This document shows, in pieces, positions 28,172 through 30,122 of a stretch of DNA of 50,291 bases (the stretch's first letter is position 1; each line of letters starts with the position of its first letter). The notes under the pieces are model-generated. The model worked only from the letters and a program-made list of their open reading frames with translations. It did not search any database and was not told the DNA's origin. Source of the DNA: Candidatus Peregrinibacteria bacterium (GTDB lineage: Bacteria > Patescibacteriota > Gracilibacteria > Peribacterales > Peribacteraceae). Location of the stretch: contig JABGQH010000003.1 in the NCBI GenBank assembly GCA_018648865.1, forward strand, positions 1 through 50,291. Direction: 5' to 3'. The translations under genes and the position numbers were made by a program.

Positions 28172-28759
28172 TCAAAACTCAAGACCCATAACTGTCTCTA
28201 CTTCTTCAATTGTTTCATCCAATTCTCCTTCTCTATTAATTATTTGAAAATCACATTCAGTGGCATATGTAAGTTCTTGTTCCATGCTTGCAATTCTACG
28301 AGCTAGTTCTTGTTCAGAAATTGGAGCCCTATTTGTAATACGAGTAATTAGCTGACCCTTGTCATCTGGCAAAATAAATATAGATTTGAGAACATAAGGA
28401 GCCTGCTCACCGCGAAATAGCTCATGGGATTTTATGCTATCAAACCCTTGTACATCTACTTCTCTTATTACTATTTTACCTTCTTCAATTGGAGGAATAA
28501 TTTCCTCTATCAAAGTACCATACCTAGCACCACCATGAACGACTGCCCATTCTAAAATCTTTCCATCTTTCTGCATTTGATCAAACTCCTCATCCGTTAC
28601 AAAGTGATACAAGTCATTCCCCTCCCCTTGCCTTTGTTGTCTTGTAGTTGCAGATTTTGGGAAATGTAATTCTGGGTTCCTTTCGCGCAATGTATTTAGT
28701 ATTACGCTCTTTCCAACTCCACTTGGACCGATAATAAGGATTAGTTTTCCCTGATTCAT
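28172..28759 (-). CDS. gmk: Guanylate kinase
   Basis: Phosphorylates GMP to GDP using ATP. The P-loop is GPSGVGKS (residues 11-18). The GMP-binding segment SATTRQQRQGEGNDLYHFVT follows at about 36-55, and EVDVQGF, corresponding to the usual DVQG segment, at about 112. The length of 195 is normal. The ATG at 28759 follows a TACAAT box by 6 nt. It stands alone on the minus strand, divergent from the ncRNA described next. Confidence 0.96.
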   Translation of the reverse strand: MNQGKLILIIGPSGVGKSVILNTLRERNPELHFPKSATTRQQRQGEGNDLYHFVTDEEFDQMQKDGKILEWAVVHGGARYGTLIEEIIPPIEEGKIVIREVDVQGFDSIKSHELFRGEQAPYVLKSIFILPDDKGQLITRITNRAPISEQELARRIASMEQELTYATECDFQIINREGELDETIEEVETVMGLEF

Positions 28760-28784: not shown

Positions 28785-28813
28785 TTGCATGCGAGCCGTA
28801 ATTAAGGTATAAT
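28785..28813 (+). promoter_or_regulatory. Promoter TTGCAT-N17-TATAAT for the ncRNA
   Basis: A -35-like TTGCAT (28785-28790) is separated by 17 nt from a perfect -10 TATAAT (28808-28813). The predicted start of transcription is about 28820. No convincing protein frame follows. Confidence 0.7.
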
Positions 28814-28819
28814 AATTTG

Positions 28820-29256
28820 ATTTGTTCTTTTTAAATCTTTGTCCCTTAAACGTAGAGAGAGGCGAGGAGTGACGCCGTAAAAGCACGGTGCAAATGGTTT
28901 TTAACTCTTTGTATCCATGTAGTTACGGTCCATATCCTGGGCGAAGCCCAGGACACTCACTTCTGTGGGTTTTCAGCCACTCCTCACCCCTCCCTACTTG
29001 CGAATTCACCACTCGCGTTAATACAAAAATACATAGTCTCCTCATTAGACGTTAAACAAGAGACCTGATGTCCTGGTTACGGACTAAATACAAAAATAAA
29101 AAAGGCGGTACGCCATTCTCGTACCAAGTGGTAGGGATTAGCAATTGGTAATTGCAGCTCATTAATTAGTATTTCATTTATGAAATGCTTAATGGGATAG
29201 CCGGGTATCTACTGGTGACGATCTTTGATCGCTACCAGCTGGGTGCCCGGTTTTTT
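28820..29256 (+). ncRNA. Candidate structured noncoding RNA (~437 nt), class unknown
   Basis: The element has a good promoter (28785-28813) and a strong terminator (29201-29256). Between them several stems are visible. A closing stem pairs GAGGAGTG (28864-28871) with CACTCCTC (28978-28985) and extends outward with mismatches. An 8-bp GAA-loop hairpin TCCTGGGC/GCCCAGGA lies at 28935-28953. Others are GGTACG/CGTACC (29107-29125), GCAATT/AATTGC (29141-29155), and a long AT hairpin at 29160-29194 (CATTAA, ATTTCAT/ATGAAAT, TTAATG). I compared it mentally with tmRNA, RNase P RNA, SRP RNA, 6S RNA and common riboswitches and could not match it. A 53-codon frame at 28894 has no coding character. Start and end are predictions. 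Confidence 0.65.
29201..29256 (+). terminator. Rho-independent terminator of the ncRNA
   Basis: The outer stem CCGGGTA/TGCCCGG (one G-U) encloses inner stems CTGGT/ACCAG and CGATC/GATCG, followed by six T residues (29251-29256). The T-run is on the plus strand, so it ends a rightward transcript. The only rightward transcript here is the ncRNA. Confidence 0.8.
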
Positions 29257-29416: not shown

Positions 29417-30040
29417 TTATGGAATAATCTTACATATAGAATTTTCTACAACAATTGCTTGGTCATCATTGAGTAAAATAGTTTTATAATCAGTGGTGTC
29501 GTAATATTGCTTAATTGAATTAGCTCTGTCCTTAAAGTCAGCGTCATCCCAATGTGGGATAACTACAAAGTCACACAAATGTAATCCACTATCAATCATT
29601 TCATATGTTGGTGAATCGGCTTCATGAAATGTTTTAATAGTTGGTCCAGCAACGATTGCTCCTGCACTTCCACCTCCATAAACAATTCCTGATTGTATTA
29701 ATTCTTTTAAATGTTTATCGAGTTCAGTTATTTTTAATAGATAGCGAATATAATAAGTATTTCCACCACCAATCCAAATAACATCAAAATCCTTTAGCTT
29801 GCCTACAATTGCATCACCATTGTTAATGTATTCATGAATATCAATAAGTTCTATTTGCATACCGAGATTCATGAGTGCAGAACGAGTATCGTATACAAAA
29901 CCCTTATTCTCTTCTTTGTGCAAATCTGATGCATTTTCTATTAATGCAAATCTGATACTACCTAATTCTTTACCAACTAGTGCCTTAAAATAAGGCAGCT
30001 GTTCATTGTTTATATTTTTGGATGATAGAAATAACTTCAT
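29417..30040 (-). CDS. Peptidase S51 (dipeptidase E-like)
   Basis: A serine peptidase of the class I glutamine-amidotransferase-like fold. The nucleophile elbow is GGGSAGAIVAG, preceded by IWIGGGNTYYIRYLL, both typical of S51 (PepE releases N-terminal Asp dipeptides). A downstream HWDD segment supplies a likely catalytic His. I prefer the ATG at 30040 (MKLFLSSKNINN), 7 nt after a TACAAT box, over the longer start at 30082, giving 207 residues. The substrate may be Asp-dipeptides or another peptide, for example in cyanophycin-like degradation, which cannot be told here. Confidence 0.88.
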   Translation of the reverse strand: MKLFLSSKNINNEQLPYFKALVGKELGSIRFALIENASDLHKEENKGFVYDTRSALMNLGMQIELIDIHEYINNGDAIVGKLKDFDVIWIGGGNTYYIRYLLKITELDKHLKELIQSGIVYGGGSAGAIVAGPTIKTFHEADSPTYEMIDSGLHLCDFVVIPHWDDADFKDRANSIKQYYDTTDYKTILLNDDQAIVVENSICKIIP

Positions 30041-30122
30041 AAGCAGGATTGTATATCCTGATCTATAAAAGTTCGACCTCATAGGCTTGCCATAAGAGAA
30101 CGAACGTAGTGAGTGAATCGAA

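Follow-up and report, generated by a model that had tools for sequence, protein, structure and literature searches.

A structured, probably non-coding RNA gene with a boxA-like start, conserved across Peribacteraceae

We describe a gene for a structured RNA in Peribacteraceae, for which comparison of genome sequences documents conservation, a common fold, a promoter followed by a boxA-like element, an intrinsic terminator and independence from the neighboring genes. We hold, with considerable confidence, that this is an independent, ~440-nt non-coding RNA gene of the family, the product of which would act in trans, either within a stable ribonucleoprotein (RNP), of which it would form the core, or as a structured regulator.

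An RNA gene between gmk and a peptidase gene

The window, that is, the whole 50,291-nt stretch of DNA that was analyzed, represents a single contig from a genome of 1.13 Mb. Among named genomes, its gmk is closest to those of Candidatus Peribacteria/Peribacteraceae (61-69% identity), followed by Peregrinibacteria (43-53%), and the source genome of the RNA belongs to a CPR lineage. In the gap between gmk and the gene for an S51-type peptidase, the first-pass annotation had found no convincing protein frame, and a check of the open reading frames agrees with it. The same annotation proposed that the gap holds a structured RNA of no recognized family with its own promoter and terminator, and the comparative evidence presented below supports this proposal. 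The promoter, the branched terminator ending in T6 and the GAA-loop hairpin that it had listed are all present (Table 1). The stem GAGGAGTG/CACTCCTC also exists; it does not, however, close the RNA as a whole but forms the upper part of helix P2, and the RNA is closed by the shorter helix P1. Further features, beyond those listed in the first pass, are the boxA at the 5' end, an H-type pseudoknot, kissing loops and AC-rich linkers.

Transcription is predicted to start at about position 28820, which, with the predicted 3' end, gives an RNA of ~437 nt from promoter to intrinsic terminator. The segment 28820-29256 folds with an energy of -154.3 kcal/mol, compared to -108.9 +/- 6.3 kcal/mol for its shuffled versions (z-score of -7.2; none of 100 shuffles was as good). 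We consider it confirmed that positions 28785-29256 of the window are a self-standing gene for a structured RNA.

Table 1. Coordinates of the RNA gene, its predicted structural elements and the flanking genes in the window
Feature	Positions	Strand	Remarks
gmk	28172-28759	-	neighbor on one side of the RNA
Sigma-70 type promoter, TTGCAT-N17-TATAAT	28785-28813	+	read directly from the sequence; -35 TTGCAT 28785-28790, spacer 17 nt, -10 TATAAT 28808-28813
boxA-like 5' end, GATTTGTTCTTTTTA	28819-28833	+	GTTCTTT begins 10 nt after the -10 box
P1, 5' strand of the closing helix (TCCCT)	28842-28846	+	pairs with 29133-29137
P2 helix with peripheral domain inside	28852-28997	+	28852-28871 with 28978-28997; upper P2 is GAGGAGTG 28864-28871 with CACTCCTC 28978-28985
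GAA-loop hairpin, CCTGGGCGAAGCCCAGG	about 28937-28953
P3 hairpin, loop ATTCACCAC	29000-29016	+	ACCA 29008-29011 is the putative kissing sequence
AC/A-rich single-stranded linker 1, AATACAAAAATACATA	29020-29035	+	ACAAACACACA-type linker here in most homologues
P5 double hairpin, GTCTC/GAGAC, then GTCC/GGAC	29036-29084	+	matches the GAGCCGATGCCCGAGCACTCGGGCT element of relatives
AC/A-rich linker 2	29086-29103	+	aligned in A2 and A4
H-type pseudoknot	29104-29125	+	pairing scores against shuffles, covariation; S1 GGC 29104-29106 with GCC 29112-29114, S2 GGTAC 29107-29111 with GTACC 29121-29125
P1, 3' strand, GGTAGGGATT	29130-29139	+	alignment A2: GGG invariant, AGGGAG nearly so
P6 hairpin, GCAAT-TGGTA-ATTGC	29141-29155	+	loop TGGT 29146-29149 predicted to kiss the P3 loop
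P7 hairpin, CATTAA/TTAATG	29160-29194	+	sequence and MFE fold; hairpin here in many relatives
Branched intrinsic terminator, T6 end	29200-29256	+	sequence and fold; predicted 3' end of the RNA
S51-type peptidase gene	29417-30082	-	neighbor on the other side of the RNA

From 5' to 3', the family comprises the promoter, boxA, the 5' strand of P1, P2 with its peripheral domain, P3, an optional hairpin, an AC-rich linker, the P5 double hairpin, a second AC-rich linker, the H-type pseudoknot, the 3' strand of P1, P6, P7 and the intrinsic terminator. In the relatives, P1 is formed by CTCTCTACCC with GGGTAGGGAG and similar sequences, the 3' strand being GGTAGGGAG in the anatomy of the homologue family. 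The base of P2 is GCAGGGAG...CTCCCTGC in most homologues. The inner P2 domain (GTGACGCC...GTCACTTCTC) occurs in some genera, and others have a short hairpin in its place; given this variable 5' peripheral domain, only the core of the RNA is strongly conserved. The optional hairpin following P3 (TTCCCTCC/GGAGGGATC) was detected in some homologues and is absent in the window.

Homologues and covariation of the structure

Plain blastn searches among the relatives yielded mostly AT-rich chance matches. The matches in three genomes (G008, G016 and G011), however, were weak but real, and all were located directly upstream of gmk, in divergent orientation, which revealed the synteny with gmk. This gene was sought in 74 genomes of the family and matched in 60, and the sequence upstream of it was then read. 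With an iterated nucleotide profile, the 3' domain of the RNA was recovered in 46 homologues, from dozens of genera across Peribacteraceae and nearly all beside gmk, so that the search for homologues suggested in the first pass led to the same locus. The distance from boxA to the first T-run in these homologues ranges from 306 to 681 nt, with a median of about 410 nt.

A covariance model of the 3' domain (R1) matched about 47 of the 57 sampled Peribacteraceae genomes, with one credible copy in each; in the window, the match covers 29089-29155 (48.5 bits). Outside the family, R1 gave only five chance-level matches among ~230 genomes of the class. These weak out-of-family matches (L230-L234), along with second matches within the family (L225-L229), were rejected because they lack the promoter-boxA unit and P2 and, in several cases, lie in coding sequence. 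At three of the rejected intergenic sites in Peribacteraceae (L225, L226 and L227), AC-rich linkers similar to ACAAACACACA flank GC-rich hairpins; such linkers are possibly a habit of this lineage for unstructured joints. The refined model (R2), run over 380 genomes of the phylum, detected the RNA in Peribacteraceae only, with the addition of one doubtful match in another family (L250, G645:C39:2557-2635; E-value of 3.3e-6). This match contains the GGGTAGGGAG stretch and an AC linker but neither boxA nor P2. The sequence in its upstream part seems to run antisense to a coding region, and we regard the match as probably due to chance. The RNA may occur elsewhere in forms that are too diverged for R1 and R2.

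The covariation of the stems, the other comparative check proposed in the first pass, turned out to be strong. When the top-scoring H-type pseudoknot of every homologue was taken, the mean pairing score was 22.0, compared to 5.0 in shuffles of the same segments. In alignment A4, which includes 48 sequences, each of the five S2 pairs was changed on both sides in at least some sequences, with 83% of the cells paired. Covariation over the structure as a whole scored 0.357, more than in any shuffle or any slid version. The strands of P1 pair with their own partners better than with swapped ones in 2000 of 2000 permutations.

The loops of P3 (typically CTGACCA) and P6 (typically TGGTCA) are complementary in each genome and co-vary: the respective P3/P6 pairs are GCCAAC/GTTGGC in L093, CGACTA/TAGTCG in L047, CGACT/AGTCG in L079, GGCT/AGCC in L092 and AGACCA/TGGTCT in L049. 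Loops from the same homologue paired better than permuted ones in all 5000 trials with hand-delimited loops of the listed homologues, and in all 2000 trials in which fixed windows replaced the P3 loop. Furthermore, the two partners are lost together, the complementary P3 loop being absent from the three homologues without P6 (L041, L045 and L056). In the model-fitted alignment, parts of P6 are out of place (47.9% paired there), and the claims on P6 and the kissing contact therefore rest on the loop permutation tests. These structure tests correct for relatedness only in part, but the sequences represent dozens of genera, in which changes arose repeatedly and in differing directions. At the level of sequence comparison, they establish a defined tertiary core of the RNA.

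The same comparison bears on the coding capacity of the locus. A frame of 55 codons (28888-29055) would be the candidate for a small conserved protein gene hidden within the structured transcript. The start of this frame, however, lies within the peripheral domain, for which entire genera have a short hairpin instead, and across the homologues, paired regions change in pairs and lengths vary freely; a hidden gene of this kind is accordingly the least probable of the explanations considered here.

The promoter-boxA unit, the terminator and the neighboring genes

The promoter-boxA unit was defined as a TANNNT -10 box followed, at a distance of 8-11 nt, by G[CT]TC[ACT]TT, usually with TTG at -35. 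This unit precedes the RNA in 41 of the 46 homologues, compared to 0.78 expected from shuffles; in these homologues, a boxA is found near the 5' end, as in boxA-dependent antiterminated transcripts. An intrinsic terminator occurs at the matching place in 39 of the 46 (1.8 in shuffles). The boxA consensus across the homologues is TG[CT]TCTTTnA(C/A)A; the core of the Escherichia coli boxA is TGCTCTTTAACA.

Comparable starts were observed in other stable RNA genes. The RNase P RNA genes of Peribacteraceae, judged by eye, begin with TGCTCTTTGATGATCGCC or a close variant in ~17 of 20 upstream regions; in these regions from 20 genomes of the family (L251-L270), a boxA-like TGCTCTTT directly follows the promoter in ~17. 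Two tRNA-Lys genes of the source genome are led by GATTTGTTCTTTTTA or a near copy. The boxA start that is common to the RNase P RNA and these two tRNA-Lys genes groups the RNA described here with the stable RNAs of the lineage. In the 16S rRNA leaders of the same genomes, a TTCACAGCATCGTGTAGTAGAG element that includes part of a boxA is located upstream, and a clear boxA near the start is present in only some. In L238 and L242-L245, the conserved element upstream of the 16S rRNA is TTCACAGCATCGTGTAGTAGAGA, partly overlapping a boxA-like word. Separately, truncated 5' ends of tRNA-Lys (and tRNA-Leu), complete with leaders, were found upstream of the intact tRNA (L175, 3800-4180 of G000:C20; L189; L191). 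These truncated copies are joined to the repeat CACCTTCGCCCTACGGGCTTCGGTCGGCAGGCAG..., an arrangement that would fit an insertion of the repeat into tRNA genes accompanied by duplication.

The boxA might itself be the functional part of the RNA, which would then serve as a sponge for Nus factors, titrating NusB/S10 and tuning rRNA transcription. The fixed place of boxA in the 41 homologues is compatible with such a role, but the co-varying pseudoknot and kissing loop would be left unexplained. Moreover, this boxA also leads the RNase P RNA genes and therefore looks like the general start of stable RNA genes in these bacteria. We consider a Nus-factor sponge very improbable.

A structured 5' region of this length ending in an intrinsic terminator could also be a cis-acting leader, that is, a riboswitch or attenuator of a neighboring gene, and an L-asparaginase-like gene indeed lies downstream on the same strand in some relatives. 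However, no constant same-strand downstream gene, as expected for a cis leader or riboswitch, was found among the 45 homologues scored: the next downstream ORF is convergent in 25, as it is in the window, and co-directional in 20. The position relative to gmk varies as well. The RNA is located ~2 kb from gmk in one genus (g14; genomes G014 and G065), and on the strand of gmk in G023 and G024, in contrast to the divergent arrangement in most others; the linked genes are inconstant, too. Because both distance and strand vary, the RNA is tied to no neighbor, and the varying orientation of the flanking genes indicates that it is not a cis leader and argues for action in trans. The cis-leader interpretation is thus largely refuted, and we assign it a low probability, little above that of the sponge. 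Through the promoter region that it shares with the divergent gmk, the RNA gene may nevertheless influence gmk in cis.

Relation to known RNAs and proposed role

A search of the window against Rfam 15, as recommended in the first pass, was negative, with no match at the gathering score and only chance-level matches up to an E-value of 10; no known family was detected at the gathering score in 20 homologous loci either. The raiA motif RNA (RF03072), ROOL, GOLLD and OLE were not among the matches to the window at E<=10.

The first-pass annotation had left a choice between a divergent housekeeping RNA and a new class. The size, the single copy and the stable-RNA-like promoter with boxA would all fit a very divergent RNase P RNA, tmRNA, signal recognition particle (SRP) RNA or 6S RNA. 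However, none of these is matched by Rfam at the locus even at E<=10, and two are encoded elsewhere in the genome. The true RNase P RNA (bacterial type A, RF00010) is on contig C9 (G000:C9:266753-267149, 129.6 bits), and a tmRNA (RF00023) with its tag is on contig C10 (C10:11808-12256, 78.7 bits), with both ARAGORN and Rfam negative for tmRNA at the locus. SRP RNA (RF00169, RF01854) was detected neither at the locus nor in the sampled genomes of the class (50 searched with the small model, 20 with the large one), and the Ffh model matched nothing in the source genome and gave only one weak match among 20 genomes. With SRP RNA and Ffh both undetected, there is no SRP for the RNA to serve. These results contradict the first three versions. 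6S RNA (RF00013) is a long hairpin with a central bubble that binds RNA polymerase, and the fold predicted at the locus is branched. A divergent housekeeping RNA is thus improbable, although less so than a cis leader, and the RNA is better described as a new class, for which no Rfam family or describing paper was found. In the literature surveyed, mostly openly readable papers, there is no description of such an RNA in Peribacteria or Peregrinibacteria; a five-genome study of Peribacteria, which used Rfam for rRNA only, reports no such element. As a side observation, the whole SRP pathway seems to be lost in the sampled genomes of the class; absence of SRP subunits from many CPR bacteria has been noted earlier (PMC8080830).

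The nearest functional precedent is the raiA motif RNA, or ModT. Like that RNA, which is stable, structured and trans-acting, the Peribacteraceae RNA has pseudoknots, its own promoter and terminator, a variable gene neighborhood and housekeeping-like conservation (PMC11706538), and it presumably shares the stability and the action in trans. In contrast, ModT has a core of about 215 nt and occurs in Bacillota and Actinomycetota, and the Peribacteraceae RNA, with no RF03072 match, falls outside that family. ROOL, GOLLD and OLE are likewise large structured bacterial RNAs with unclear function and long-range tertiary contacts (PMC12286853), but are found in other taxa. With RNase P RNA, the RNA shares similar size, single copy and the same boxA start in the same bacteria, but a separate, recognizable RNase P RNA exists in the source genome. 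The boxA of E. coli rRNA also lies early in a long untranslated RNA, where boxA recruits NusB/NusE and counters Rho (PMC4807359); unlike in E. coli, the putative boxA here is located almost at the 5' end, without a recognized boxB. The wider kind, large structured bacterial RNAs without a known function, is already known, and no unprecedented mode of action is shown here.

In our view, the locus is best read as the gene for a stable structured RNA that is specific to this lineage, acts in trans and probably forms the core of an RNP. The sigma-70 promoter would start transcription almost at boxA, which probably loads NusB/NusE, such that the untranslated transcript would escape early Rho-dependent termination, as in rRNA, until transcription stops at the intrinsic terminator. 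In the predicted RNA, which is presumably abundant, P1 would close the molecule, and the 3'-near pseudoknot and the P3-P6 kissing contact would form a compact body, leaving the AC-rich single-stranded joints open. Most likely, the RNA then acts in trans, as a stable RNP core or a structured regulator. The joints (ACAAACACACA) would provide an obvious open surface and, together with P5, are the likely contact sites for a putative protein partner.

Near-universal single-copy structured RNAs beyond the known housekeeping set are rare, and earlier ones pointed to unknown biology. The alignment and the models offer a starting point for detecting the transcript in metatranscriptomes of groundwater, probing its structure and pulling down possible partners. 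We regard the chances as even that the RNA represents an undescribed class, stable and acting in trans, which serves as a core cell component in one CPR lineage, is boxA-led like RNase P RNA and has a function with no known counterpart. That RNase P RNA has the same boxA start points to a mode of expression for stable RNAs that is common to the lineage. Given the small genomes of CPR bacteria, an RNA gene of 306-681 nt that is kept in most genera of the family likely matters to the cell.
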